Source of the DNA: Hamiltosporidium tvaerminnensis
Taxonomy: Eukaryota > Microsporidia > Dubosqiidae
Reading direction: 5' to 3'
DNA length: 64,000 nucleotides
NCBI GenBank assembly: GCA_022605425.2
Contig: CM061254.1
Coordinates: 310,001-374,000 of the forward strand
How positions within the stretch are numbered: the first letter of the stretch is position 1; each line of letters begins with the position of its first letter. The notes below the pieces were generated by a model that worked only from the letters and a program-made list of their open reading frames with translations, was not told the DNA's origin and did no database searches. The translations under genes and the position numbers were made by a program. Below are positions 3,001-25,424 of this stretch, piece after piece.

Positions 3001-5484
3001 TTATCCAAAAAAAAAACAGATTTACATTTATTATTCGATTTTCCTCGTTGTAAACCAATTTTAAATTAGATTTCTATATTCCGAATTTGGGTTTCCAATA
3101 TTCAAAATATATTTTTCTACGTTGACATTTTAACACCAAATAATCTCCTCATATTTATTTCACAACAAGGCAAAATAAAAATTTTTCGGTTATTTTTTAA
3201 ATCTCATACCTGAATACCTGTAAAAAAATATTTCTTTTCGAAGATTCAATACATTTTACAAATATTCAAACAAATATTCTCTATGTATAACTTAGTGTAA
3301 AATTTTGTTTTCTATTCATGTTGTCTTTAGTAGAATACTTTAACACAATGCTACAGTTGAAACCCTTTTTTTAGCATTAAAAAGACTTGGTTTCCAATTT
3401 TTAGATAATATTAAGTTCGCAATGATAAATTGATATTAAAAGTTTCTAAAGTCATTGCATACTTAACATAATCATGTTTAAGATACGCAAAAAAACGTAA
3501 GTATCAAACATAGTGAAACTTAGCATAACAATGACATCAAACGAGAATGGAATCCGCATACAATTTATATCTATAAAATATAATTGTACTAAGATTCACT
3601 AAAAGAGATAAATACATAATATACCTAGATTTGTTTTTCAATAAAGTTGAGAAAAGATTCCCACTCTTCGAATAAAATTTTGAAAAATCTCCCGCAACTC
3701 TTAAAATTTACTACGAAAATAGTTTCAAGGCTATCTGGTCATAGATCATAAAATATTTTAGATATAATTAATGTATCACCCAGTTTATAAAGAGCAATAC
3801 TCCTTCATAAAATCGTTACTATTATTTGAGTTTTACACCATATTCAACTCATTAAACTTAATTTGCTTTGAATATAATGCATGCTTTTCCATAATTGCCA
3901 TCTAAAAAGGCTCTAGAACAGCTCTAAAATCTAATTTAGATATAAATTTTTGTAAATTTACGGCATATTTGTGCTAAACAAAATACATATATACTTCATA
4001 ATACTCTCATCTAAAAATTAACAATACTAATATTGTCTCTTTATTCGTATTTCAGAGCAATTCTTTACCATATATGTGTTGATTTAAGCAAACATTGTGC
4101 AGAATGATGGTCTACGATTTTCATTAAATATACTTTTCGAAATTTGTAATATTTTTTAAATTAAAATTTTAATATAAAAAAAGTAAATAGAAGATTTATT
4201 AGATGACTAAAATGTAAAATTAATTAATCATTTATTACTTATTTTTTTTATATAACAGATTTATAAAAATCTGTAAAGTTTGACGAATGTTATCTAACCT
4301 TGCCTATATTTCAGAAACTACCAGGCTATATATAATAGATAACAAGCTGATATGCTATATATATTTGTGTATATATTTAAACATATAAGAAAAAAAGACA
4401 CTTTATGTTCCTGAGAAACACACTATATTTATTATATCAAACTGTCATCAAAAAGTTAATTTTAAACATAATTATAGCATTATTTGAGGAAAACAATGTT
4501 TTCTTATTCATTATTTAAAAATAATCGAAGCATATATAACAGTGTATCAGTTTATTTTCCAAGTCTTAGAAAGTAAATATGCTTATAATTTGTATTAGAA
4601 TAAAATCTTGCATTTTGAAAAAAAAAATTAAATATATCTTTAAAATATAAACCTAACGTATAATAAGTAAGAATAAAAAAGCCAATCATTAGAATATTGT
4701 TACAGATATGACTTTTTATGCCAAACCAAATGCACCCTACATTAGATCGAATTCAAAATGGTATTTTTTAGTTACAACATAAATATATCAAACAATTAAA
4801 GAGTTGCAATTCAAAAGTGATATTATCAACCAACATGCAAGCTTCATTAACGAATTATATACATTCTTTGTAACTATACTAAATCTTTCGGACAAATTTA
4901 TCAGATTAAATTTAGATTCCCGATCTTAACAAGCTCCTAACTTCATATATACGCTGTTTTATGTACAAATACAAGAATTCAATAAAGAAGTCAGGCAGAC
5001 TTGGAATCGAGTTATTTATAAACGAATACGCATTTATTTCCTTATTAAATATCGAAAAGAGTCGTTGCGAAAGTTTTATACAGGGGCCTAGAATAAGATA
5101 AAAATTTCTAATAAATCGAGGCTAACTATCCAGAAATAACACTAACAGTTCGGTAAATTATAAATGATACTCGACGTTTGAGTTCTATATTTTATGTTAT
5201 GAGTGACTATTTCTTTAATTTTAAATGTTTGTCCGAAAATAGTCTCTGGAAATTATTGGGCAATATATTATAGTATTTTTGCAGATCTTCTGCATGTAAA
5301 AAACAAATTTACAAATAAATTTTACCAAACTTTTATTTAGCTGTCATATAAAAGGCATTGGTTAAGCGATTAAATGCAAATCTAGGCTAGATTTATTTAT
5401 CTTAAGTTACAGATTATATATTAAAAAATATACGTTAATATATTGCCTCGTCCAGAAGAGATATTGACTAAACTCAAAGCTAAA
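1..5484. other. gene desert, 5' part
   Basis: I see no supportable gene here. The sequence is very AT-rich with stops in all frames. Open frames of 60-76 codons at 257-487, 750-950 and 2413-2607 have the F/I/K/L/N/Y-only composition expected by chance at this base content. There is no tRNA-like or rRNA-like block, and no tandem array apart from short TA-rich runs such as those around 4321-4390. Confidence 0.6.
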
Positions 5485-5720
5485 TTTCTCTACAATACCC
5501 GGGCAGAATTAGCTCGATATATTCTCTGTTTGTCGTAAAAAGTGACTCAAAGGGACTAGTCTTCTAGTTTGGGGTTAGGCGTAGGGCTAACAGCCCACCC
5601 TTTAAAACCACCTTGTTACGAAACCTAAAAGTAAACAAACCCACTTAAAAGACCAGTGGGCAGTATCACCGAGGGGAGCCCAGGCTCGTACAGGGCTATA
5701 GTACCGATCATTATAATGAT
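5485..5720 (+). repeat. SINE-like retroposon, copy A
   Basis: This is one of four related, GC-richer, non-coding units in the window. It runs from TTTCTCTACAATACCCGGG to a GAT-rich end (ACCGATCATTATAATGAT). It contains all the shared blocks: a CCGGGCAGAATT start, GTCGTAA...GTGACT, GGGGTTAGGCGTAGGGCTAAC, CACCCTTTAAAACCACC, TTGTTACGAAACC, GACCAGTGGGCAGTATCACC and CAGGCTCGTACAGGGCTATAG. It is flanked by the 6-bp direct repeat GCTAAA (5479-5484 and 5721-5726), which fits a target-site duplication. No reading frame is conserved, so it is probably non-autonomous. A fragment of a larger element's untranslated region is the alternative. Confidence 0.8.
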
Positions 5721-5726
5721 GCTAAA

Positions 5727-8700
5727 AGCGAATTATAATTTTTTATAAGACGTTTTACCATTTAATTTTTCGTTTGCTTTTAAACTACGTTAATGAAAGT
5801 ATATATCAAAACGGTAACTAGATTTATTTAACTTTATGTGTTCATTTCAAACCTCATTTTAATATTTTTGTTTTTGCTAATATTTATATTTTATTGATCG
5901 TTATATAAACAAAAAACATGCAATGTTTACATAAATGCATTTAATTAATGTTATATACACATAGAAAACAGCTTCATTTAAAAGGAAAGCCTGCTTAGAA
6001 AGTTTTTTTTAAAATTTGAGTTCTCTTTTTCGATTTTATCAAAAATTTAATAGATAATTACTATGCCATATTTTAGAGCATAAACTTATAATGATGTTTC
6101 CAAAGTTTTCGACATTTAAAAAACTATTTATATATAGATAGAATGCATACTAAGAAAAAACTAGATCTGAAACATCAATCACATTTAATAAACACATATT
6201 TAAAGAATTTCTTAAAAAGTCTGCTTCAAAAATTTTTATCTTTGATGAATGAAGAATTTAAAATATTTTTGTTACATCGTATGTTTGTTTCCGACTCGCA
6301 AAATAACGGTTTATGCTTTGATATTTTTTTTATATTTCTATTTTTTAATTTTTTTTCATTTTATACTTTTCTTTTTATTTGAACTGTAAATATTTTAATA
6401 AAACTATGCGATGATTTTACTTCTCGATAGTAAAAATCATTAAGATAAAATATATTCTTTTAGATTTTTTAACGAAATCACGCGAAACAATGAATAAATT
6501 CTTTTTCTATGTATTTGACTGTCATTATAAATTTCTTTATGAATTAAGAATATGTTTCATAACAGAAGTATGCTTCGGATAAGTTTCTATTCAGAATTTG
6601 ATCTGTTATAGATAATTACATTTAAAGATGTGGCATCTTAAGAAAATAAATAATCCGAGTATTACTAAAATTATTAAGTTAAAATAAATAACAAAAAGGC
6701 TGCACCCAAAAATGTTCGAATATTTGTTTGAAAGCAGCTTTTTATCTCTGAATGTATCATAATATAGATCTAGTTTTTTTCATCGACAAATACACCTGAA
6801 AATTAAGAAATGAGATCCAATATGAATACAGAAATTTCAAAAATAGCTCATATACAAAAAAACGAATGTGTTAGTTAATTCTTGAGAACAAAAAAAGTAA
6901 CTAACAATTTAAAAGACGCTTAGCATAAATTATTCTGTTATCTCATTACTTATAAATAATCTCGTTTTAATTATTGCATTTTATTATAATGATTCGGAAA
7001 TTATAATTTTATAAGAATTTAAGATATTTTAAACGATTCTATGATTTTAAACGTAAAATTAGCTCGCAGCTATTAAATTTAAATATCCCAAATCGTTAGT
7101 GTTCTACCTCGCCTCAGTTTTATACATATACTTTTTCAAAAAATTCTAAATATACATTAAACAATGCCATTTCCGGGTCTGTTTATTTCAGAGTGCTCTA
7201 TTTGAGTGACAATATGAAATAAAGTTTATTTTTACTAAATTATTAAGGGTTCTGGTTTGCAAGAGGATACTTTACACTAATAAACACAGCAAATCTCTTA
7301 TATCAATCTATCCATTTGGTTATAATAACTAAATAAATTTCAAGTAGAAATGCCAAAAAATATACTTAAGTTTAAAAGTATTAACTTTACATAACATATA
7401 TGAATTTCTTGTATAAAATTTACGATATAAAGTAATAAATATATTTTAAATTATTACTGCTGATTTCAAAAGCCCTATGAAACAATATAAATACTTTATA
7501 CTTTTTTATTCTAATTTATGTATAATACAATTTTTATGGTAAATAGCAACTCGAAAAGACATGGCTAGCCTTTTTAACTTATTTATTACATTTTTTTAGC
7601 AAACTCGAAATAATATATACTTTGAATTAGGTATTTTTTTATTCTAAATACACAGAAGTTAAAGAAAATAAGAGATTATTAACTTGGTACTAATCGAGAT
7701 TTTTTTCCTCCAATTCCGATTCCAAAAAATAATTTAACTTGTTTGAGCAATGTATAAAGCTTATTATTAAATGGCAAATGTACTTTAGTACCAATTCAAC
7801 GCCTTAATATAATTTCTTGAAGAAATACAGAAGATTATAAATTTCATTGTATGAATCGATAATTAAAAAAATTTTTAAAAAGAAATATTCTTGACTTCTA
7901 ATTCAAAATTCCAAAAGTGTCTAACACAAAAAATTCTCTTCAGCACCGAGATGTACAAGACGCTTGAAATAAATTATTGAGTATAAAAAGTTAACATGAA
8001 TTTTAACTGTATTTGCTTATATGTTTTATAAAGTACAAAAAATATATTTTTTTACTTGATAATTTCTATGTAAAACAGAAATGAAATTATTAAAAATTTC
8101 TTGAAGAACAATTCAACGTTTCTTAAAATAACTTGAAGCAATTATATCCCACGCTATTAGAAAAAACATTATCCCTTTTTTTGCTACAAAATCAAAATAT
8201 ATAAAACAATATAGACGTAAAAAATTGTTCTTCTATTTTTTATATGAAACCTTTTTCACGATTGATAAACTTTAATATTTTGTAGAGTTTAATCTTGTCA
8301 TTCTCAAATTTGTTCAATATAAGAATTACAAATTTTTATTTATAAGTTATATATTGAATCTTATAGTTAAAAACTTACTTTTCTGTTATTATATAAATGT
8401 GATATGTTATAAAGATAACTATATTTGCTGAACTTAAACAATTTTTTTAACCACAGAACCTAATTATAAGATTAAAAGCCAGTATATAAAGCATAAAATA
8501 GTATATTATAACCAATTATTGTTCTTTATTAAATTCAATTAGATTTTTAAAAATATTAAAAGTGCGATTAAACAAAAAAACTACTTCCAAGTATATCATT
8601 AAAGGATACAGTCCCATAATTTTTAAAAATTTGATTTTTTTCTATCAAATCATAATAACTTGTATAAATCAGACACTTTCACAATAAAATTTTTTAAAAT

Positions 8701-11480
8701 AAAAAAAAACTATAAATATTTCATATGATTTTTTTTAAAAATTAAAAATCTTTGAATTTGCTTTTATTTTTTAAATTTCATACGAGCAATTGAAAAAGAC
8801 TGATATTTTCTTATATAAAAACATTACGATTAAAAACATATACAGATATGGCATACCAACAAAGTTTCAACGATAAATCTGCATTTTAGTTTTCATATTC
8901 ATTTTTTAAACTTTAATTACGAAGTATCGTACATTCCACTAATTTTATTATTCGAATATCCGGAAGAAATGCAATCATTAAACAAATAATCTAGTTATTA
9001 AGATACAATAAACCTATAATTGATGATTTCATCCGAGAATTTTTTTGGTTTACTTTTTTTTGATGTTTTGCGAACATTTCATTCCTATGATCTATAAGTT
9101 GATCAAAAAAATGTCAAAAGTACAATAATTCATAGAATATAGTACAAAGACAAAACGTTTACAAGACCTAGAACTCGCTTTTATAAACACGAGCGTCCAG
9201 CAGGTTTGAAAAATATATCTTATTTCAAAAGCATCTAAGAAAAAATATAGCAGCAGCGAATATTTTTTTATAATTAGGTTTTAACTTATATTTAGCGAAA
9301 ATAAACAATTGGGTTTTATAGTAAGAATCTATTACATGTAAAAATTGCATCTTAAAGGCAGTTATAAAATTTCGACCACTTCTTATAAAATACTATTCGG
9401 GTTTCTAAATGTTTTATCTTATTATAATTCTTATTTTAGCGCCATTGAATAATATTTAATTGCAAAATGCATTTGTACCTAAAAAAATGAAAATATAGTA
9501 CTATATGGTATATATTAAAAATTTCATTTTGAAAAAGATGTTTTTTTGGGTGTGTTTATTTAATTCTTGGCTATAAATAGCACAATAGCATATTTTTTAA
9601 CACATGTTATAGACCAAGAAATCCTATAAGATACATTGATCGATTTTTTATTCAAAAATATCGCTATGTATTTTTAATCCCAGAATCGATTTCAGATTTG
9701 TAAAAATTACTAACATAATATATGGATTCTAATTTATTTGTTAATCTGATTTAATTTGTCAATAATTACATAGTTTCGAGCTTCAAGTACTATATGATAA
9801 ATTTTAAAAAGTATCCAATGATAAAACCAAATTCATGTTTGCTAGATATCCGATTTACTCTAGACCAAATAAAAGCTTAATATGTACAAAAGGCATATAT
9901 AAATTAATTAATAGACTTTTTTTTGTTTATAAAACCAATTTTACAAGAATAAACACAAACCAAAATTCAAAGTTATCGTACGAAAATCATTTCTTTTGTA
10001 TTCTATTGGTTGTACAATAATGAATATTACCGCTTAATTCTCGTTTAATCCTTTAAATAAAACATATCAGATATATCTTTGGTTTATAAACATTTTACCT
10101 AACTTTCTTTTCATTTCTCTATTTAAATAGATACAAGGACCAAACTAACGTCTTCTTTGCGACTTTCTATATCGTTATTAGACCATTTTTTTTTGTTAAA
10201 GGCTGCTTACGAATTACATGTCTAAAAAATCGTTCTCCACAAATTCTTTGCTCTTAATTTTGGTTTTTTTATGAACGCTATTTAAAATAACAGTTTGGAA
10301 TATCTCGGTAACTATTACTCGGTAACCATTTTTTGAATATAAATTTTAAGCCTTCTACTTTAGCTATAATGTTCACTTGTATGAGTTGATAGAAGCAAAA
10401 CATCGAGTCGAATTTATTTTCATAACAGTTTTGACTTAAATTGTTTTAAATCTATTTTTGATAAAAAGAAACGATAAAATATCATCATATTTATCCGATT
10501 AAAGTATTTGTGTTCTTAAAGGTAGTATTTTAAATTTTCGAAATGAACATAAATTTAAGGTACAAGGTTTTATTTTAAACATTTACAAAATCGTTTCAAT
10601 GCTAAAAAGTTAGCCTTAAGTCAATAATATTTACATTTCTTTGCAGTGTAAGGATTTCACCATTAATACAATGTATTATATTATTTTCATAAATAAAATA
10701 ACTAGAAAGGACCTTTACATCATATCGATATAGTAAAGGCATGTTGCGTCTAATCTAATATAAAACATTTTTGTTCTATGTATAAATGACATAGAATAGC
10801 ATTCTGATTTTAAAATAATATCTTAATCAAAATTGACGAAAGAAACAAAAGGTAAAATAGAGCTATAAGCAAAAAGAGAGGCTTTCGAGTGCAAATTTAT
10901 CCAGAAAAATGCTTCATTTTATTACAGCGGTATTCTGTAGACATTATAATTTGGATTTTAAGAAAGGATAGGAAGCTTAGTGTGCTGTCCTACATAAATT
11001 TTTTTTGTACACAATGAAATTTGAAAGTATAATAAATCATCATGCATTGTGATAAAGTTTGGGAGTAGGTCTATGGTGTTCGCTTTGTGTTGACAACAGG
11101 ATAAAACCAAAAAACATATATAATACAACATTTTATTGTAAAGTAACAATTCAATAATATCCAGAAATGATAATGAAATAGAAGATGCAGCATAAAAACA
11201 CTTTTCTACAGCTTAAATTCTTTAGCGAATAAAATAATGTACCAAACGACGCTTTTGGATTTAAAGCGGCAATATTTAGACTTATTACAACATCGAATGC
11301 TTTTGCGCAAATAAATTATAAAGATACTTAACAGAAAAAACATACATTTTATACGGCTTACGGAACGGACTGCCCTCAAATAAAAATCAGCTGAACTATT
11401 GAGAAATGCACACATATTCAATAGATTTGGAACATTGTCTTTTTTAAGTACTAATATCTGACTTAAAGGTCATAGCCATT
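5727..11480. other. gene desert between repeat copy A and the retroelement
   Basis: No gene can be supported. Chance frames at 6143-6382 and 9835-10020 lack any recognisable motif and have homopolymer-driven composition. From about 11200 to 11430 the plus strand can be read as a stretch containing NSLANKIMYQTTLLDLKRQY. That resembles the pre-RT region of the retroelement that follows, but I cannot confirm that it belongs to it. Confidence 0.5.
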
Positions 11481-11489
11481 TTAATTAAA

Positions 11490-13712
11490 TTTCGGATAAA
11501 TGTTCCGACTATTGACCAATATACAGTATGCCAAACCGATAGAATCTTACGACGAAATGCGCAACAAAAGTCGTTGAGTTTAAAGTGCAAGGAAGAAGTA
11601 TATCACCAGATAACCTGTTAGAATCGGTAAGAGGAAAGCAGCGCATGAGAGAGCAGAACTAACTGAACATTGCCTTAAATAAAGATAAGAAAACAAACTT
11701 AAGACAACGTGGATTGATCTCAAAAAAGCGTATAGTTCAATAGATCATGCGTTTTCTTCACAGTATATCGAAAACATGTATTTACGGATAAGATCGTAAA
11801 TTTATTGAAGTAATAATATCGAAATACAGAATTGATACCAGAATAGGGCTTGAAAAAATCATGACCCAAAAGATTGATAGAGTTATTTTGCAAGGGAATA
11901 GTTTGTCACTATTGCTGTTTGTGCTGCGTATTTTTCTTTCAGCTGAAAGCTTAGCGAGAAATACACAAAGAGACAATACTAACAGATGCAGAATCTAACT
12001 CTACTAATCATCTCATTTTTTAGAGATGAACTTAAGCTCCTTTTGCCAAAGAGTTTAATGCTGGAGGAGATGACAGATGAGGTTAAAAAGTTTTTGAATA
12101 ATACAGTATTAGAAAAACCAAATTTTGTCAGCCATAAAGGACTCGTGTTGGAAAGATACTGATACTCTTTTTGGAGGTATAGGTGTTTTTCATATCTTGG
12201 AATAATATATGATAGCAGAGGAATCTCAACCTGTAAATCGTTCGAAGAAGTACAAAGCGAAATGATATTAAGTTGAATGACTTTGACGCATATGATTGGA
12301 TACAAAAGATTTCATTTCTGCAATCAATCAACATGCAATATCGTTAATCAACTATCACATAGGAATACTTCGACTGGAATTTGCTGACTTCTCTAGGTTA
12401 GATGATACAGTACAGACAGCGGGGGTAAAGAATAAGATACATTTACGCTCAAGGGGTAAAGAGTCTCTATATCTTTATAGAGCAGAACTTGGAAGAGGTC
12501 TTTATAATGTTGAGTTGCGAAACGAAGATATGCTTTTGCAACTTCTGAATAGTTGGGGAAAAGTAAAAAAATATAAACTAACAGAGTAGCAATTTCCAAA
12601 ATGGAGAATATCAATAAAACCAATTTTGTACAAATAAAAGGCTTCCTAAAAGTAAAATATTGATCGGAAAAAGGAGTCACTAGGAGGAAGTGCGAGGAAA
12701 CTTTACTTGCAACATTATTTAACGAAATAGAAAAAATAAAACTTCAATCAAATTTATATAAGGCTAGAGAAAACGAGCTTGTAAGTGTAAGTGAGTCTTT
12801 GAGATGGTTAAAGGAATTAAAGTGTGACCATGTGATGAAGCAGTATTCTGCTATATCTAGAATAGAAATGTATTCAGGGGCGCAGAAAGTGTGTTTCACC
12901 CTGCAATCAATCAAAACAACAGTCGTTCATTTTCAGCCCTCGATATGAAAAAATGCTTGGTCAGGACTATATTAGAGACAAAATAAAGCGGTAAGATGCA
13001 TACACTTACTCCTACTAAATATATAAAAATTCAAGTCCTTATAACGAATTAGAAGTCACTCGGTCCAAAAATCTTTATAACGAGTATGCAGAGATATGAG
13101 GGGAAACTGGATATAAATTGATGTCGAGATTCGGTGTAAAGACTCGATATATTTATTTTTGATAGGAGAAAAAACAAGATTCACTCATTGAAGTTGGAAT
13201 AACTTCACAAGGCTAACTTCAAACAGTCTAAACGGAGAAACTTAGAAAATATGACCTATTAGTAAATGAGCTGGATTTTATTTATAAGCGTAGTGTTGAG
13301 ATAATCCCTTATGGGATGACCTAGGCGGTATTGGCACAAAATACTATAATTCACTCCTTAGAAGACCGCAAATCCTCCATAAGGATGGGGTTACATCCTG
13401 TCGATTGTACTTAAAAAGACAGTCGAAACACTATCTTCATATCGACGAAGACGACTTGAGTCGTGACCAATTGCTGTGGAGAGTTTGGAAAGTTTGTTAA
13501 TAGGTATTATTAAGTGAGCCGAGATGTAAAACAACCAATACCCTTTTTTAAGCAAGTAGACAACGAGGAAGATGGGGCTAAAAAATAAAATACAAAACAA
13601 ATACGAAACACTTATTTTAGAAGACAAATACAGTGAAGGATACAAGATAAATATTAACCAAGAGTCGGATTTAGAGAAAGATAACGAAGGGCTAAATGTT
13701 TGGAATAATTAA
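11490..13712 (+). mobile_element. decayed R4/Dong-type non-LTR retrotransposon (RT + restriction-like endonuclease)
   Basis: The reading frame is broken many times but the protein order is clear. At 11500-11580 fragments match the RT approach (SDY-PI-SMPN then LTTKCATKVV). At 11700-11750 there is a near-intact TWIDLKKAYSSIDH, the RT motif carrying the first catalytic aspartate region. At 11980-12100 there is TNHLIF, then after a frame change DELKLLLPKSLMLEEMTDEV. The catalytic FxDD is altered to DE here and disrupted by the frame change. From 12296 to 12589, 97 codons stay open and include NQHAISLINYHIGILRLE and KESLYLYRAELGRGL, hallmarks of the R4/Dong lineage. At 13140-13330, EKKQDSLIEVGITSQ and RKYDLLVNELDFIYKRSVEII correspond to the C-terminal restriction-like endonuclease. 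The last open stretch stops at 13712. The element is dead: several stops, several frameshifts and a damaged active site. The clade call rests on motif recognition, and the 5' limit is uncertain. Confidence 0.82.
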
Positions 13713-15770
13713 TCCATACGAGATAAATTTAAAAAACCCAGATTTTAATGGAATACTTTTTAAGGATAAATGATATTTAAATAAATTATGCTTTCGAAAA
13801 AACAATCAAAATAGTTATTTTACAATTTTTTTTAGAATTAAAACCGAAAAAAAAATCTAGTACAATAAATACAGTTTTGATTACGCTTATAGTTCATGCA
13901 TTAAACTCAAGATTTAAGGTTTTACTTTTATTAAAATGTTAAGTTTTTTAGTGAAAATTTAACTAGCAACTAGCTCTTTACAAATAAATATGAATGGAAT
14001 TAAACAATCATAACAATAAATATGCCTCAGAATTTCCTTAATAACACTCATATGTTTTTTAAATTGCAAGAATAATTCCGAAACGAACTTTCAAAGGATA
14101 AAAAGTACTGATAATGTAAAATTTTAGCAATGCATATTTTCCATTATTGATTTAGCGGCATTCAAAAAAAAAGAAGATATTTTTCAGAAATATTTTTTTG
14201 ATTTTTTAAATAACTATAAATCTCATTATTTCCAAAATATGGCAAACAATTTTTTTTTGGTTTTCTTTTACTAAATAGATATATTTTTTTAAATATAAAA
14301 TTAAATACATTGAAGCAACAAATCATACTGTCGAAGGAACTTAAACGCCAAATAAAAGTTTAAGATTGTATTCGAATAGAGTAACGTAACGATGATTATC
14401 TTTGGAGCGAAAGGGCCATATATATTGGAACAATACTTTGTAAATGGGCATTAATATTTTATCATTTTAAAAAAATTGTTTAATCTGAATGTGTGTTAAA
14501 GTAAAATACATGAACTTGTTGGAATTGTACGTTTGATGATTTGACTGATTATAAAGGTTTTATGGCGGATTTCAGCCTAATATTTTTCTAACAAGCGCGT
14601 TGTTGTGTTTCATTCAGGCTTATAAACACAGGTTTTTTCTTACTAAAATAGCAAAATAGATAATAAAATAATTCCATGCAAATTTTCCATATCAAAAAAT
14701 ATGATATATCCTGTTTCTGTAGCATAATCATTTTTTTAGATATTTCTAGGCATCTCAACAGATCAAAACAAACAAACAAAAACAATATCTGTAACAAATG
14801 TGATACGCAAGTAAAATTGTCAGTAAAAAGGCTCTAATTTTGCGAATGAATTCCTTAATATATCGATTTTGCAAATCAAATTGTTGTAATAATGTATTGA
14901 TTCATACCAGTGTGAAAAATATCCAGTACTCATAAATTACTTGATGATAGAATTGGGGTATTTTGAAGTTATTATTTTTTCACAAACCACAATTCTCTTT
15001 TAACTGCTAAAACCCCCAAAAATAACTTTTTTATATACCCATAAAAATTCTTTTAGGAAAAAACTAAACATATTTCGTTTGGCAAAAGCTTTAAGGCTAG
15101 GAAATTTTCTTTACAAAGAATATACTAATCATTATTACTTTAAAATAAATCAAGGATATATTTTAAAGACAAACATTCAAGAATCGTTGAATCGATAAAG
15201 TACCTTTACGTTCATTTAGACTATAGTTAAGGCGAATATTAGTGGATGTATGTGTCTCTACGTGTGGTGTATAAATTCTATAATTTAATGGCTTCGCAGT
15301 TTTGAAAATTATAATTTATAATAATGTTTTGAATTACCACCAATAAATGCTCTAGAAATCTCTAATAGCAAAATTAAAGAACATATTTTATCGAAGCGAG
15401 CAAGCTCTATCAATACTTTATAATAATATTGTTTATATCGATTGGCTTGGTGGTTCTGATCTTAAACAGTACCCTGCTATATTGCCATACTTTTTTTTGG
15501 CTTTCTATATTGAAATATACATGCTTTGTTCTTCTGCTTAATGAAAAAAAACATGTAACAATTAAGGCACTATACTTGCGATTTAGTAAATTATAAATAT
15601 TAAGCTAAATATTTTTTTAGGTTAAGATCATGAAAATAAAAAATTTGCATATAATTAATATTTTGAAAGCGCCTCCGCAAATCTAATATTTCAATCATGT
15701 AATAACATCACATTTCAACAATATTCGGGTAAAATATATATCGTTTTATTCTATAATATATAATAAAAAT
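13713..15770. other. intergenic, no gene
   Basis: I see nothing that supports a gene. A 69-codon minus-strand frame at 14588-14797 has no motif. This stretch lies between the 3' end of the dead retrotransposon and repeat copy B. Confidence 0.6.
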
Positions 15771-15941
15771 TCCTCTCCATGCCGGGAACAGAATTGGCTT
15801 GGAGTATTCACTGCTTGCTTTTTTTGGGTACGTTGGGCGTAAGGCTAACAACTCCACTAGAAAAATCAGGTAGGTGTATTTATTACCCAGAAAGGCCAAG
15901 GCTCGTACAGTAACTTTAGTGCCGATGATCCTGATGATATA
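15771..15941 (+). repeat. SINE-like retroposon, copy B (internally shortened)
   Basis: It begins TCCTCTCCATGCCGGGAAC, keeps AGAATTGGCTTGGAGTATTC, TTGGGCGTAAGGCTAACAAC and GGCCAAGGCTCGTACAG, and ends GTGCCGATGATCCTGATGAT. It lacks most of the middle (the CACCCTTTAAAACC to GTTACGAAACC part), so it is about 65 bp shorter than the other copies. Flanks at 15762-15770 and 15942-15950 share AATAAAAAT exactly. Allowing one indel, the match extends a few more bases. This looks like a target-site duplication. Confidence 0.78.
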
Positions 15942-18900
15942 AATAAAAATCTACGTGTATAGATCTAAAGAGTAAATAAAAAATTTTTTAACTACGTTAA
16001 ATGGACAAACAGTTACAGTGAGATTTTTACATAAAAATTGCGTATATCTCTAATTGCTGTTGATTTTACTTATACGAAGTTATAGTGTAACCGAGAATAC
16101 TAAAAACAGATTTTTAGGCTTTTATAGAGTGCAAATGCGATTCCCGGTTGATGCGCTTTTTATCTTTCGTGCGGAAAGTTTGCGAGAAATGCCGACCAAA
16201 CAAACAAAATTGTATTAGGACTCCATAACATGGCGAAGCCCTGATTCATCGTCGGATTGTGTATAAATGGTTAGCAAGGAGCGAGCTATTTAATAAATAG
16301 ATAGGATTCAAAGGTTCTCTTAATATATCTATAAATACGTTAATTACCCTGAATAGTGCTATAGTGTGTTTTTCGCTCGAAATAAGACCACAGATTATTC
16401 TCACATCTATTTATTCCGTTCTTGTTGTATTTGCGACAATTTTGTTTAAGTTCGGGGTTCGTTCTGTTATTGTCAAATTTAAATTAAATATGGTGTAAAA
16501 ATTCTGAATTGAATAATTTTTTTTGTGAAACAAGCAAATTCAATTAGCTTTCATTTTGGCTCGGTATTAGAATATATCGTGGATCACTTTATCGTTGCAA
16601 ATAAATAGCAAAAAATATTTTTAGTGATTATAAGACAACATATCAAACATCAATACAAAGTATCAGGGCTCATATGTTTGAATTATTAGACAATATATTT
16701 TTTTTCATTTGCATCCATAATTTATATTCCTTTTTTTTAGAAAAAAGGAAATCGCGTAAAAAATTTTATAAATATATACAGCAGATCAAACCTACGAAAA
16801 TTTTTAGTTTATATGATTTAAGTAGTTATAATCCGAGCTCTCTGTTTATATATCTATGCTTTACTTAACAAGTGATTTCATACTATAATTTCGGTTAAAA
16901 TTTATACTGAATCTATTAAAATTCCAATCGTTTCTTTTATGCAATCTTCAAACATCAAGTAAGCAAAAAATAGAAACGTTACACCAGTTCGAAATTTTTA
17001 TAAGATTTTAAACAATTTCAAAGCTCGATTGTTTAATTTTTTTCAAACAGACGTATTAGAGCTTATATTTGTGACGAATTTGAATTTCTTAGAAGGATTT
17101 TATCACCACCGGATGGTAGATTTATGATATTTATTGTATTTATAGAGAGAAATAAACCAACATAAACATACGAAGTATATTAAATGCTCAAAAAGCAATC
17201 TTTGCTTAAAAAGCCCGAAAAAAATATGCATATCAGAGAAATATATTATGACAAGGTTTGACCAAATTTTATTTGAAATTGTTTTTAGAGTTTTTTTTTG
17301 AAACCATTTTAACCAATATACGACACGATAGTGAAAACTATAGTTAATTATCTTAAAGAACTTAATATTTCAAAATTTGTATAAAATTTCGATTGCAAAA
17401 ATAGCTTTATCATAAGCATAAATATATGTTAATAGAACTTACGGAAAACTAAGGAAATCCCAAATTATTAGAATCAATACATTTATTCAGTGATCAAATA
17501 CGATTAAAAATAGAAAACTCTTATGCTAATCAATTATATAGGGGTTACGGGCAATTCAAATAATTGGGTATTATGTATAATGCCCGAGGCAAATTGGAAT
17601 TTGAAAAATTTTTTATGTCATTAAAAAAATCCGAAATATTAATAATAGAAAAAATTTCAGAAAGAAACATATAACCTAGCTTAAAATCTCTAATTTAATA
17701 TACGCAACCTTTAAAAAGTTGACGGGAGAGTGTTAGTCTTATATTTCGAAAGAGGCTGCACCGATGCAAGAAACATTATGGTATTTGTTCTTGACAAAAC
17801 AGATACTTTTAGATTATTGAGCACTAAAAATAGAATCTTGTTTTGGGTTTGCGCGAGGAACCAATCTACAATATGTAGTTTAAACTTTTTTTTATTTTGA
17901 AGAAATTCCAAAAGACGTCAGCTATTAAGTGAATGTGCACGAATGTTATTTAAGACCGCGTGCGAAGGTTAGTAATCGATAGATTTTCAAACTGAATGGT
18001 ATCTGATAACTGTAAAAGCTATAAAATAAAGGGCTTTGTGCCTCGAATTTCACAGAAGGAAACTGTTCTAATAATGTAAACCGTATAGGAATAAATGTTT
18101 TTCAAATGTAAATGTTTTTCGTTATAATTACTTTTTTTCTATAATGTTTTTACTTTAGTAATATTTCTTCTTATTTTTGTATATAATAAAATAATTATAT
18201 TAAAATTCTCAAATAAACCAATTTTTTTGGCATTATAATAATGATAATGCCCAATTTTTTAATTTTCCCGTAACATATATATTGCTTTTAATTCTGAAAT
18301 ATTTATTTCTTTTATATGAATAATTCAGGAATCTTTTTGTGTTATTAAACTAGTTTATCTTAGTTTTTTTTATATATGAAAATTTATTTTTAGATGACCG
18401 TTGCCTAAACAGATTATGACATTCTGACCAGGTATTAAATTGACATATTATTTTCAGGTAAAATCCGTGTGAAAATACATCTTGAATGGTTTACTACATT
18501 GAAATATTTCGAAGTGAGTTAAGATTTAGGCTCTTAATAAGAAAAAAACCTTTTGAAAATCAAATAAAAAGCCTAAACTAGGAAAAACAAAATCGATTTG
18601 GATCAGCAAATTTCCATTATAATATCTTTAGAATTGTATATTTTTGCCAACAAAAAAAATTCTAGCACTATTTTTCACTGATTTTTTTTGATTCTATTTA
18701 TTATAAAGACCCGGGTTGCAGTATAGCTGTTGTGCATATTTTTGGATGCTAAACCAAGTGTCAATTGTTCGAGATATTATAGTTTTGTAAAGAAAGTTTC
18801 AAGAATATGATAAGCAATTTAAAAAATACGAGTCATACGATTGGAATTGTTGGTTAGTAATATGTAAAGTGCAATTTGGGTTAATTTGTATCAATATAGT

Positions 18901-20172
18901 ATTTTTTCACCTTTTCTAATCTATGATGAACGATTTTAAAACACAAAGAATTCTAGTTTAAACATATAAAATGTGAATTTCAAGATCGCATAATATTAGC
19001 CTTATCCATATTAAATTTTTTATTTTAAGACAAAAGAAAAACTATAAATTTGATCTTCTCGAATACGTTCAAGCGAAAATTAAAATATTTTTAGGGTTTT
19101 CGTTGCTTATGATCTTTTTTATAAATAAACATAAAGGTTTATGGATAATTAGATTGTGGTTGATTTTTATGTATAAATGTGAAGTAAATCAAAACTAAAA
19201 TATAAAAATGAGATAAGTACTATTATAAAATAGATAATCTTTTACAGAATCATAAATCTTAACTTAATTTATTTATTTTTTATTTGTGCTTAAAATGATA
19301 ACCATTTTTGTAAACTGTTCTAAAAAAACCTTTTATTTTGACTTAAAGATTAAAATTATATGAACTAATAAAGAGCAAATTTAAACTTGCATTGTCGGAT
19401 ATATACTTTACACAATCTTTGTCACATTCTTAAATATCTCTTTTATAAGAAATATGTTAAATTGTATGACACATACCTGCAATGAATTATAAAAACTCGG
19501 TGACCGATATAACACCCTTAAAGATAAAGGATTACTCAATGCTGACATAAAGCGTAAAATCTCGCTATACCGATATAATGCTAAGGAAGTCTTTTTTTAC
19601 TAAGCTAACAATATTTATGATTCTTTTAGAAGTTCAATAACATTTTAATTTATATATTTTATTGAACAACTATCTTTCAAATTACATACTTATAACCCGA
19701 ATGTACTTTTTTGACTTTTATTTTTTCTTATTTATTTCTAAGTCATTTGTAAAAAATGGATATATGCGATTTTATTAGAACAGATTAGAGGATAATATAA
19801 AGTTAAACAAGTCAACGAAATTATCAAACTAATTCATATAGTTACAATAAAGGTTTTGTCTTAAATAGAATATTATCGCACGCTATTCAAAATTATGTCT
19901 ATAATTGTATATTTTTTAAATTATATTTTGCAACCTTGCTTCAAAATATATTTGATTTATTAAGAATTTTTAGTTTAAGTAAGATATTTTTTTCCGTAGA
20001 ACAAAGATAACTTTATTTGTAAAAATATGATAAATGAATTTTCATTAAAGATAACTAAATAAGTTTAGAAATCGCTTTAAAGATTTTGGTAAAGAAACCT
20101 AACAGGCTCATTTATTAGTTATGTGAGTGTATAACCATATTTGATACAAAAATATATGTTTTTCTATCTCAT

Positions 20173-20215
20173 ATCTGCTCTAATGTATCTTTAAAGATAC
20201 CTTATACGAGCAGAT
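20173..20215. repeat. nested inverted repeat / hairpin
   Basis: The outer arms ATCTGCTC (20173-20180) and GAGCAGAT (20208-20215) are exact reverse complements. They enclose a perfect 16-bp palindrome GTATCTTTAAAGATAC (20185-20200). A single-stranded form would make an 8-bp stem, an asymmetric internal loop and a second 6-7 bp stem. No gene is adjacent, so its role is unknown. Confidence 0.7.
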
Positions 20216-22109
20216 GCTCTTATATTCAATGTATGTAAAATCGAACAATTTCAAAAGAACAATAAACTATAAATTTTCTATTCTAATAAAATAAAAAGAA
20301 AAAGGAAAAAAACAATGAATTTGCTAAGTTTAAAAAAAATACTAAACGATAGAAAGTTCATATATAAAAAAACCAATCCCTCTTTTATATTAAAAAATCG
20401 GTTTTTTATGCATCACATGATTTATTAGGCGATATTTTGTAAATAATATAGTTTTATCACTTAAAGAAAATTCCAATTTACCTAACACTTTTTTAAAGAA
20501 TATTTAGGAGCTACAACATATATGTAAAATTCTAAATGAAAAAAATCTTAAAGTTTACCTGGTAAACGTTGCAAATATGGTATTTGTTTGTTTTACAAAT
20601 GTTTCGCAGCTAATTTAAGATGTGATTGCAAAGAAATGTTTATAAAACAAGAGTAAAATCAAAATAAACAATAAAGCTTTGTATGATTATTTTAATTATG
20701 ATTGAAAATAAATATTGTTTTGCTCTTAGCGTTTCTATACTAAGGCATAAATATATTACAAAGGAAACTAATTGATGCAAATAAATATTATATTTCATTA
20801 AAGTAGTTAAAAAGCCGGTATATTGAATATAATTTGAAAACACTATATGTAACTCATAAAGCATTTTGTGATGCATTTACTTTCTACTGTTTATACACCG
20901 ACGTATCTCTTTGTTTAATATTTGTGGTAGAACAAATGTTTAACGATTTTTCTAACGAACGATAACGATTTAAAATATTGCTACATTTAATTTTAAAATG
21001 TGATCTAAATATAAGATTCTTACACCCTGATATTATTTATTCTATTTGTTTTTTCTATACATAGATATGTATTTAACTATAATTTTTGATTTTTTTTAAT
21101 AATTTATCCTAACAACCCAAGTGTACGTGTGCTTCATCAAATTTCAAAATAATATTGTAAGAATTGAAATCAACATAAGTATAGATCAATATACTTTTCA
21201 AAATACAGCGCACGTATTTTTAAAATATATTTAATATTTGTTATATATCATCAAACATCATATTTTAACTAACATATTTTTCAATTCGTTTTTTAGATTT
21301 TGTTGCTCGAACGCTATGCTATTGAAATATATCAAAAAATTTAAACAATAATAAAATATTCTAAAAATGCGAAAAACAATTTATTAAGTCTTATTTCTAA
21401 TAAAATAAAAATATTATGTTATTTAAGGTAAAGTGATTTAGGTATGATTTGTGTGTTTATAAATATAATATAATCGCCAAATATAAATCGCATATGTTCA
21501 ATAGCACTGCATTTAGCTTTATTTTGCAGGTTCTGACATATTGAATGATTTTCTTGAGATTTTTACGTATAATATCTTAAAGAAATTTTTACATGTTGTG
21601 TCGAAAATTAGAAATATTTTGACATAGTATAGCTCAGAATTCTTCTTTCGGATTCGCCGCATTTAATAGTTCGTGCATTTTAAATTTTTTAAATTTTTAA
21701 ATTTGAGAAAAACATATAAAACCAGGCCTCCTTAGATATATTTAGACACAAAATCAACCTCTGAGCTAATATAATACTTAGTTTAGCTTTTTTTTCTGAA
21801 TTAAATTTAATAGAAAAATTCTACCTGTTTGTTTTTATCGTTATTGTTCCTTATCTTTTACTGCGTTCGACAAGTATACGGTTCTATTTATTTCTCATGC
21901 CCTTAGGTTCCATACTTATTTTATTTAGGTACAGATATATTTAATTTATTACCAGCGGAATTCAAACTTTAATTTTACACTAATAAATTTATTCTATACA
22001 AAAAGTATGCCAAGATTATAAATTTAAAATTTAAATAAAAAGATTTATAATTCATAATTAAACCTTTATGCGCATCAAATAAATGATGATGTTCTTGCAA
22101 TTTAGGATC

Positions 22110-22128
22110 AATATGCTGTCAGCATATT
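22110..22128. repeat. 19-nt palindrome
   Basis: AATATGCTG and CAGCATATT are exact reverse complements separated by a single T, a near-perfect 9-bp dyad. There is no adjacent gene and no downstream T-run pattern that would make it a credible terminator. At this AT content it may be chance. Confidence 0.45.
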
Positions 22129-23455
22129 CAAAATAAAAAATTCTTCAATATTTTATTGAAATAGTTAATCTAGGATATGTTGTTATGTTTATAAATTTTA
22201 TATTTTAAAATTTTTAACATAGTCCCAAAACAGCTGTTCGTAACCTTTATGAAGTTTTATTTCCTACGGTTGTAATATCATAAAGTATGACAACTACAAA
22301 AAATCCAAATATACATAAGATTTTTATAACTTAAATTTTTCTAACGTTTTAGTAAATTTATTCATAAATAACAAAATTGCCATTTTATAAATACATTTCT
22401 CAAATCACAATCAATCTATCGAACTTATAAACACAGCTATCAATTTTAAGGTACAATCATGCAGGCAAAATATATTTATAAATAGTTCTAACACCATTAT
22501 GTTTTTTTTAATTTGGATTTTGGCGTAAAAAAAACAACTTTCTACTGATTTAATAGAACCGAAAGCAACAGTGCCTTTTTCTCTTTAAAACGTAGAACCT
22601 ATCCATTGGCTTTGTATTTTATTTTATATTCTAAATCTTAAAATAGTATAATTTCTATAACTTTTTCATTAAGGTCAAATATTCAAAACCTAAAACTTTG
22701 CGCTTGTATAAATTGCTTTACTTTGAATTTACTATTTGAATTTTTGAAAAGTATAATAGATAAATTTTAAGTTCCGTTTATTGCTTAGAGTTGGTATTCT
22801 AACTGAGCGTGCATAGAACCAATAAGATATTGAGTTTCTGTAAAAGTAGGCGGATCTCTATGTTAATTTTGAACGATTTGTGCTGAAAGAACCAATAAAA
22901 CAATATTTGATAGAATGCGAAGAAAAGCCAAAAATTTTAAAAACGAATAGCTATACGTTAATCTATAGCTTGAAAACTTACATCCAAAGCCCACTATAAA
23001 TTTTGATAAACTTAAAACAGTTTAAGCGCGAGGCTCATGATAAATTCAAAATCGTTTTTTTTGAAATTATAAAATTAGCCGGAATGTAGTAAATCTAAAA
23101 AAGACAAAATACTTCCTAGCATATTCTAATATTATCGTACCAATAGCACCTCTGCTCAGAATTTTTGATTTAATAAAAGATGAAAATTTTATCATTTAAA
23201 ACATCAGTATTCGGATGAAGCATCGAACTTAAATTAGAATATGGGTATCAACATAAAAAAATACAATATATTCAGAAGATAGTAAAAAAAACAAATTAAC
23301 CGTATTGCATTGTCAGACTATGGTTCTAAAATAATTGAATTTCTGCGTTGTGCCCTTTCCTTGCATTTATACAAGAACTCAAGTATAAATGATCGATATT
23401 CTAACTATCGTATGACATTCGGAATTTTTTGTTTTGATACATATTAGGTAAAGGG

Positions 23456-23691
23456 TTTTCTACCATGCCGGGAGCAGACTTCGCTTTGAGTATTCTCAGC
23501 TGTCGTAAGAGGCGACTAAAAGAGACTGATCCTCCATGTTGGAGTTGGGCATAGGGCTAACAACTCACCCTTTAAAACTACCGGTTACAAACTCAATAAG
23601 TATACAAAGCCACTGGAAAAAGATCGGTTGGCGCTATTATAAGGTAGGCCAAGGCTCGAACAAGGCTGTAGTGCCAAGGATGAATGAATGA
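23456..23691 (+). repeat. SINE-like retroposon, copy C
   Basis: This is a full-length copy starting TTTTCTACCATGCCGGGAGC. It contains GTCGTAAGAGGCGACTAAA, GGAGTTGGGCATAGGGCTAAC, CTCACCCTTTAAAACTACC, GATCGGTTGGCGCTATTA and GGCCAAGGCTCGAACAAGG. It ends GTGCCAAGGATGAATGAATGAG, so its tail repeats GATGAAT rather than GAT. I could not find a clear target-site duplication. It has the best preserved 5' half of the four copies. Confidence 0.8.
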
Positions 23692-25162
23692 GTTAGTTCA
23701 AAAGTACCTTATGAAACCTTTTCGAATCCCCAATTTATATATTTAGTTATTTTACATTCATTTATTATGATGAATCAGTCTGTTCAACTTGCGATATATT
23801 GAATGAGTCTTTTGCCTATCAAGAATTACGGCATATTACTTAGATCAATAGAAAGATTGTAAATCTTGCAATATAGAACACAAACAATATATTTTATAAC
23901 ATCTATGTATTTTAATACTTTATTTTCCACGCTAATTGTTTAAAAAATATGTTTTATTTTATAAGGCAGTTTAAAGAGCTTTTCATAATATACACACAAA
24001 AAATATTGAAATCTTTTACTTTCTGAGATAATGATTTGCCTTATGTACGCCATAATTAGATATATAAAATTCTATCGTTTGCTTCGTAATAAAATGGATT
24101 TTAAGAGTTATAATAGTAAGTAAACATGGATGCGACATATAAGTAACAAAGATATGAAATTTAAGAAATTTGGAATTAATTAGGCTTATGAAATATAAAA
24201 TGATATTGTTCTATTATGCACGATAACGCATTTGGATTATTATTGTATACATTTTCCTATAATAGAACCTATATCTAATGAGCCCGTATAATTTTTCTTT
24301 AGATATTTCTAACGATTTTTATGAGTTATTTAACGCAAAGAATAACATCGGGAACGAAATCATTATTTTTTAGCTATTTTAAATTTTAAAACTAATATAA
24401 ATTTTTCTTTAGGTTTCGAATTTATTTGAAAACAAACATATAAGATCTTTAAGCATAAGTTTGGGATATTACAATATATTGATAATGTACCTCATCAATG
24501 AAACTCTTATTTATATTAATTGTGTTTTGGAGTATAGTAAAAACTCATGAATTCTTTTATTGTGTTTCTATTTGATCTAAAGTGTGGCTAAATATATATT
24601 GGTAGTACCTAATTAGTGTTTTGAAATTGTATCAAACAAATTTAAATAATATTTTAACTAGCTTTCGAATAATTCATTATTTCAAGGTAACCAGCACATT
24701 TAACACATATCTATTATAAATATTTATTCGCTAAGATAGCACAAAATTTTGCATGATTATATAAATTTTACAAGTTAATTAGACAATTGTTGCAATCATA
24801 AGTTGTTTAGAACGTAGAACAAAATGTGATCTTCTCATTGTACTAGAAAAAAGGTTCTTGAAGAAAAAAATCTATAGAAACAATAATTGAAATTTTATTC
24901 AAGTGAATGAATCAGTAGCATTCAATAAAATTGTCCATTTTAAATTATAAAAAAAATTCAAAAGTGTTCTAAGCGATTTTATTAAAAAGAGATATATATT
25001 TCATTATAGACCATTATATCTTTTACCTATTCTACCTTACATATTTTTTAGCATATGTTTTTTAATAGCAAAACAAATGAGTTGAATACTTGCAGTATAT
25101 TCTAAGCTTGGATCAGGGCTTTGTTTTTCTCTTATCGAACTTGTGGATTGAATAAAATAATA
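23692..25162. other. intergenic between repeat copies C and D
   Basis: About 1.5 kb of AT-rich sequence with no open frame of note and no recognisable motif. Confidence 0.6.
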
Positions 25163-25176
25163 AAATAAAAATATCT
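25163..25176. repeat. left target-site duplication of copy D
   Basis: AAATAAAAATATCT lies directly upstream of copy D. It is repeated 14/14 at 25411-25424, directly after the copy's tail. Confidence 0.75.
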
Positions 25177-25410
25177 GCACCATGTCAAGAGCAGAATTGG
25201 CTTGAAGTATTCTTTGCTTGTCGTAAGAGGTGACTAAAGGGACTGGTCCTCTATGTTAGGCGTAGGCTTAACAACTCACTCTTCAAAATCACTTGTTACG
25301 AATCCAAAATAAAGAAACTAAACTACTGAAAAGAGATCGATTGGCAGTATTACTAAAGGAGAAAGAGGTCTATACAGGGCTGCAGTGCCTATGATAAAGT
25401 AATAGAAGAT
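25177..25410 (+). repeat. SINE-like retroposon, copy D, with 14-bp target-site duplication
   Basis: This copy starts GCACCATGTCAAGAGC. It contains AGAATTGGCTTGAAGTATTC, CTTGTCGTAAGAGGTGACT, GGACTGGTCCTCTATGTTAG, GGCTTAACAACTCACTC, CTTGTTACGAATCC, GATCGATTGGCAGTATTAC and CAGGGCTGCAGTGCC. It ends in a degenerate ATGATAAAGTAATAGAAGAT. Exact 14-bp repeats on both sides define its ends, so the unit is 234 bp. No open frame is shared with copies A-C. A tRNA-type internal promoter is conceivable (GGCTTGGAGT-like and GTTACGAAACC-like boxes about 100 bp apart in the family), but neither box is a good match. Confidence 0.85.
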
Positions 25411-25424
25411 AAATAAAAATATCT
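25411..25424. repeat. right target-site duplication of copy D
   Basis: AAATAAAAATATCT, identical to 25163-25176. Short duplications flanking a unit are the signature of insertion. Confidence 0.75.

Follow-up and report, generated by a model that had tools for sequence, protein, structure and literature searches.

Our analysis of a 64,000-nucleotide stretch of the genome of Hamiltosporidium tvaerminnensis (assembly GCA_022605425.2, contig CM061254.1, positions 310,001 to 374,000; hereafter the window) centers on a short repeat that occurs there four times. With high confidence we read this repeat as a non-autonomous retroposon of about 236 bp, which most likely arose once from a long interspersed nuclear element (LINE) of about 3.1 kb that lost its middle. 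The first ~157 bp of the element are those of the LINE 5' end and the last ~80 bp are those of the LINE 3' end, including the last 16 codons and the stop. In its architecture the element resembles trypanosome RIME or ruminant Bov-A2. The four units, with their flanking repeats and the conserved block of unit 3, are as follows.

5485..5720, + strand: unit 1, an old full-length copy, about 80% identical to the consensus (identity 0.797; profile match 2e-60)
5479..5484: direct repeat on the left side of unit 1, GCTAAA, with its right copy at 5721-5726 (read by eye and by script)
15771..15941, + strand: unit 2, an old copy with neither the conserved block nor the middle
15762..15770: direct repeat on the left side of unit 2, AATAAAAAT, with its right copy at 15942-15950 (by eye)
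23456..23691, + strand: unit 3, a younger copy with a (GAAT)n tail, about 91% identical to the consensus (identity 0.907)
23502..23520, + strand: conserved block GTCGTAAGAGGCGACTAAA in unit 3, within the part derived from the LINE 5' end (alignment with 14 LINE 5' ends)
25177..25410, + strand: unit 4, an old copy, about 78% identical to the consensus (identity 0.783; profile match 9e-55)
25163..25176: 14-bp target-site duplication on the left side of unit 4, with its right copy at 25411-25424 (sequence and script)

The four units had been described in an earlier reading made from the letters alone (the sequence-only reading), and the sequence at these coordinates bears it out in part. A profile seeded with units 1, 3 and 4 recovers all four on the + strand and nothing else within the window at E<=1e-4. 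Unit 2 emerges from this search as two pieces, 15775-15854 and 15847-15929, which fits a deletion in its middle. The units had been called richer in guanine and cytosine (GC) than their surroundings, and this holds for units 1, 3 and 4, at 40-46%, where the window in 2-kb stretches has 21-32%. Units 3 and 4 contain the conserved internal block GTCGTAAGAGGYGACTAAA without mismatch and unit 1 contains it with three, at a chance expectation of 0.03 matches; because it is not found in unit 2 at up to three mismatches, it is not common to all four units as had been proposed. Likewise, the GAT-type tail ascribed to the family is present in units 1 and 2 but not in unit 3, which ends in (GAAT)n as young copies do, nor in unit 4, which shows neither repeat clearly. 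Units 1, 2 and 4 do have flanking direct repeats, 6, 9 and 14 bp long respectively, and comparison of the flanks of unit 3 by eye and by script found no target-site duplication there. The part of the window that houses all four units, positions 1-30000, is gene-poor, with no open reading frame of at least 120 amino acids (table 11; ATG, GTG or TTG starts).

Beyond the window, the search covered the whole assembly of 21,638,905 bases in 17 contigs. Unit 3 as a query gave 40 scored matches of 315 candidates, at 83-88% identity besides itself, and the profile was iterated over 264 kb made up of the window and 20 genome stretches centered on the best of these (20 of the 39 other matches listed); since the stretches were picked by their match to unit 3, the sampled copies lean toward sequences like it. 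Of 33 profile matches in the 264 kb, 28 are nearly full length and can be aligned end to end, and these define an element of ~236 bp with fixed ends and a short-repeat tail, whose consensus starts with TCCCCACCATGCCGGGAGCAG, reads GTCGTAAGAGGCGACTAAAAG from about position 47 and ends with GGGCTGTAGTGCCAAGGATGAATGAATGAA. Identity to this consensus is 91-95% in 21 copies and 72-83% in the other 7, the younger copies lying ~5-9% away from it. GC content in the aligned copies is 39-51%; the published genome value, as excerpted from PMC10542269, is 26.6%. The 21-base block at up to two mismatches has 193 genome sites, the reversed control none, and it occurs on all 17 contigs among the 100 places listed. 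These sites include LINEs, at least two of the listed places sitting in LINE 5' ends (L012 and L044). The young 3' end has 88 genome sites (control 0). The total copy number is likely several hundred, above both counts, because old copies can escape both patterns. With the block sites divided 78 to 115 between the strands, the placement of all four window units on the same strand is explicable by chance.

The relation of the element to its partner LINE can be read from a single copy (L012), in which the 5' part of the element (profile positions 3-166) lies at 1403-1565 and the 3' part (158-231) at 4415-4488 on one strand, with ~2.86 kb between them that holds pieces of a decayed reverse transcriptase (RT) frame (RVT_1 at 2.6e-7 for one of five pieces). 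A DNA search with the 395 bases just inside the LINE 5' part found 14 places including L012, and in all 14 the element 5' part precedes the LINE 5' coding region; seven of the 14 share their outer flanks and represent one duplicated insertion, so that the set comprises 8 independent insertions. With the exception of L046, these matches begin within a few bases of a common point. On the 3' side, a protein search with the C-terminal piece gave 27 places, of which the 11 best others were examined together with L012. Here, in the comparison with LINE 3' ends that the sequence-only reading had recommended, the 3' part of the element closes 12 of 12 LINE ends, which again reduce to 8 independent insertions, as five of them have common outer flanks. 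The consensus 3' part reads in frame as DRWAVLLREAKARTGL followed by a stop, and a predicted protein of H. magnivora (P0001, CWI36_0662p0020) has a similar end, DQWATLLRKAKTRAGL. Because the 3' part reads in frame as the end of the LINE protein, we conclude from the sequence that the LINE gave rise to the short element, not the other way round. The deletion junction is AAACCCA^CTGGAAA. The unit is thus not just a fragment from the interior or the untranslated part of something longer, the finding that the sequence-only reading had named as speaking against it; it holds both LINE ends without the middle.

One copy of the partner LINE itself appears to have been carried within a larger repeat, as seven 5' flanks are 89-99% alike over ~140 bp. 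On the 3' side of the same duplicate set, five flanks (L032, L035, L036, L037 and L039) are 74-98% alike. The seven 5' copies are located as follows.

C12:1993735, C3:559320, C8:92600, C1:1848600, C14:1133270, C4:318410 and C8:462770: partner-LINE copies L048-L054, in that order

The partner LINE may be RTE-like. Three protein searches returned Hamiltosporidium proteins, save for one weak match. As to the APE-type endonuclease and RT of the RTE clade, Pfam gave nothing on six predicted proteins related to the partner LINE, and there is one weak tie to a PF03372 protein (P0011) at 27% identity over 16% of the query. Public hypothetical Hamiltosporidium proteins (P0001 and P0002-P0010) look like remnants of the partner LINE family or of its relatives, and P0001 seems to be a gene model whose splicing bridges a broken LINE copy.

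Insertion of the short element as a unit is evident from its flanks. Terminal direct repeats score at least 9 in 17 of 29 copies, as opposed to 2.65% of mismatched flanks, and the clear target-site duplications are 11-17 bp long with at most one mismatch. Among the 29 rows scored, L010 and L011 are one duplicated insertion (both in the 17) and one row is a LINE 5' piece (not in the 17). L010 (C8:147700) and L011 (C8:59000) lie in opposite orientation ~88 kb apart; their sequence and flanks are identical over the extent shown, and they mark a duplicated stretch. The copy at L017 carries a 14-bp duplication and has an RT frame upstream, while the frame downstream resembles, by eye, the C-terminal frames of L058 and L059; from these frames the copy appears to sit inside another LINE, which we take to be Dong-R4. 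When the L017 flanks are joined with one copy of the duplication, the joined sequence matches across the join at all 40 places scored (534 candidates) with 83-85% identity. This copy is therefore a clean insertion, the matched places being its site in the empty state. The fixed ends, the tail, the target-site duplications and the empty-site test all concur with the sequence-only reading that this is a short non-autonomous retroposon.

A single origin is favored by both the junction and the phylogeny. Throughout the aligned short copies one junction is seen by eye, and in a tree built on the 151 shared 5' columns one branch separates the 28 short copies from the 14 LINEs (support 94/82), a split that recurs in 92% of bootstrap trees. 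One deletion event is the simplest account of the origin, because one junction and one branch serve for all 28 copies. Between the closest short copies the Kimura two-parameter (K2P) distance is 0.077 for the 5' part and 0.085 for the full element. For the closest independent LINE copies it is 0.188 (5' part) and 0.204 (C-terminal part), and for the closest short-long pair 0.188 (5' part). Pairs of duplicated LINEs (0.046-0.095 in the C-terminal part) were excluded from this comparison as duplications of one insertion. The nearest independent LINE pair is thus more than twice as diverged as the nearest short pair. Since short pairs are closer than LINE pairs and no open frame above 180 amino acids was seen at the matches to the partner LINE, the spread of the short form appears to postdate the last remaining insertions of that LINE, or else the active LINE may have been lost or be absent from the assembly. 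We regard this apparent age gap as a lead and not as a measured rate, because sampling favored short copies like unit 3 and there are few LINEs.

Several observations weigh against derivation from this LINE by one deletion followed by retroposition. The 5' end of the LINE at L046 matches only from profile position 11, and the guessed 5' regions of two further LINEs carry no element match (2 of 2), though these two may be truncated copies. The dividing branch of the tree draws on 151 columns, with a bootstrap that had yet to stabilize. In 12 of the 29 copies, among them unit 3 and the row that is the LINE 5' piece, no duplication scores at least 9. Finally, the search found no intact copy of this LINE, the longest open frame being 166 amino acids among 27 matches and 180 among 23, and the presumed helper is for this reason not seen.

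The same evidence bears on what else the repeat could be. The length, tail, target-site duplications and copy number are all compatible with a classical short interspersed nuclear element (SINE), in which a head derived from tRNA, 5S or 7SL RNA and transcribed by RNA polymerase III (Pol III) is joined to a LINE tail, and a box-B-like GTTACGAAACC (7/10) lies at consensus position 129. However, the head is the 5' end of the LINE itself in 14 of 14 LINE copies, ARAGORN finds no tRNA in the window, and Rfam is blank both for the window at gathering thresholds and, at E<=1, for a 331-base stretch around unit 3. The best joint score for boxes A and B, 13/18, is equalled or beaten by 181 of 500 shuffles. 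A classical SINE is accordingly very improbable, and the term SINE-like chosen in the sequence-only reading stands for a short retroposon but not for a classical SINE, the element being LINE-derived, of the RIME/Bov-A2 type, with nothing to indicate a Pol III head. That the whole unit is of LINE origin would also suit a set of dead LINE copies, each the product of its own deletion and with no family of their own. We consider this to be every bit as improbable, given the one junction (by eye) and one branch for all 28 copies, the 193 block sites (LINEs included) that far exceed the 14 LINE 5' ends, and the fact that short copies bear their own duplications, one of them with empty sites.

A miniature inverted-repeat transposable element (MITE), or another non-autonomous DNA transposon, would likewise be short, repeated and non-coding, and an excerpt of PMC4405373 reports MITEs from Nosema. 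Yet the one copy tested (L009) has no terminal inverted repeats, the ends are TTCC... and ...(GAAT)n and coincide with those of an RT-coding element, and the clear duplications vary from 11 to 17 bp; there is next to no probability left for a DNA transposon. A search of a phage collection gave no match to the element, which says little for a eukaryotic repeat. At the RNA level, a small hairpin over the conserved block scores z -11.3 with short copies and LINEs together and z -3.1 with the 28 short copies. It is not reproduced by the 14 LINEs alone (z -1.3, another fold), and the 3' part of the element has no common RNA fold (z 0.1). We make no claim of a ribozyme or an RT-binding hairpin, as the LINEs alone give another fold and the changes look like CpG decay.

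Returning to a single deletion in the LINE, the proposed mechanism would proceed as follows. Loss of the middle of the ~3.1-kb LINE (2.86 kb in the one copy measured) would have removed nearly the whole RT frame, leaving ~157 bp at the 5' end that we infer to hold the promoter and ~80 bp at the 3' end that are presumably the part recognized by the LINE RT. Element RNA would be transcribed from the retained promoter, and LINE protein acting in trans would copy it into nicked genomic DNA by target-primed reverse transcription; this insertion would leave the short-repeat tail and the target-site duplications. As to the source of that protein, the 3' regions of eight other LINE loci (L055-L062) are unlike the element (one match, E 4); the true element end lies within the stretch read for six of these eight (L056-L061), which we take to be of the Dong-R4 class. 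A second decayed LINE family, related to the partner LINE, is represented by six loci with a weaker match to it, at 33-39% identity (L063-L068, C2:471110 and others). Five of these six give weak matches to the 3' part of the element, the best at E 0.0011 when eight short loci were searched, and in L063 and L068 the C-terminal frame finishes in a similar ARALQGL-stop. It is a related family, and at most a possible source of the element. The likeliest helper would be the decayed partner LINE or a lost active sister of it. We view as rather unlikely a further scenario, an orphan retroposon with a changed helper, in which the element outlived its LINE and another LINE of the same genome supplied, or still supplies, the machinery that moves the young (GAAT)n subfamily.

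The genome also contains many long open RT frames of ~1250-1300 amino acids, many of them equal in score (e.g., at C12:1405245, C17:775900 and C4:112789), which suggests that the LINE family bearing them is young and perhaps active. Presumably this family is Dong-R4, and six of its ends that were fetched finish near AAC(C/T)CAGAATTTTATTAAATAAA.

Short retroposons assembled from the two ends of a LINE have precedents, which we compare here from excerpts of the papers cited. In Trypanosoma brucei, RIME (0.5 kb) is its own LINE, ingi (5.25 kb), with the central 4.7 kb deleted (PMC2323293), and the likeness to the present element is one of structure. The tail differs, since trypanosomatid retroposons have an A-rich 3' stretch (PMC2323293) in place of the GAAT or GAT-type repeats seen here, and ingi has potentially functional copies (PMC2323293), whereas no intact partner was found here. 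The SIDER elements of Leishmania are likewise short, present in many copies and suggested to be deletion derivatives of LINEs that survive only in degenerate form (PMC2323293). Unlike the younger copies here, which are ~5-9% from the consensus, LmSIDER2 is called extinct, its most conserved copy being 12% off consensus (PMC2323293). A living autonomous partner, described for RIME but not for SIDER and not strictly defining, is not found here. Bov-A2, RTESINE1, MAR4 and RTE1-N1_LA are SINEs with the head and the tail of an RTE-type LINE, either BovB or RTE (PMC3747384, Table 1). They differ from the present element in being mammalian. The likeness to them through RTE depends on the LINE class that we have assumed for Hamiltosporidium.

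For H. tvaerminnensis, the literature searched contains no description of the element, though entries in tables can escape such a search and supplements and most subscription papers lay outside it; the word SINE is absent from the main texts of PMC7313128, PMC4202319, PMC13174016, PMC10542269, PMC12449221, PMC12558613 and PMC2784321. To this extent the family is uncatalogued, as the sequence-only reading had it, but a SINE class in a microsporidian is on record. The repeat table of Nosema bombycis, as excerpted from PMC3614468, gives such a class 28,669 bp (0.18%), known here as a total only, with SINE occurring once in the text. In the published H. tvaerminnensis assembly, 25.45% consists of repeats of class 'other' (excerpt of PMC10542269), and the element may be among the unclassified repeats of earlier repeat libraries.

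Large microsporidian genomes hold much unnamed repeat sequence, and the family described here names a part of it and ties that part to a LINE. Our findings indicate that a microsporidian parasite of water fleas has followed the route by which trypanosomes and mammals derive short retroposons from LINEs of their own. Since the copies fall into an older and a younger group and have clean insertion sites, they could mark differences between Hamiltosporidium strains, and the apparent age gap between the short and the long form raises the question of whether a LINE can be outcompeted by its short derivatives.

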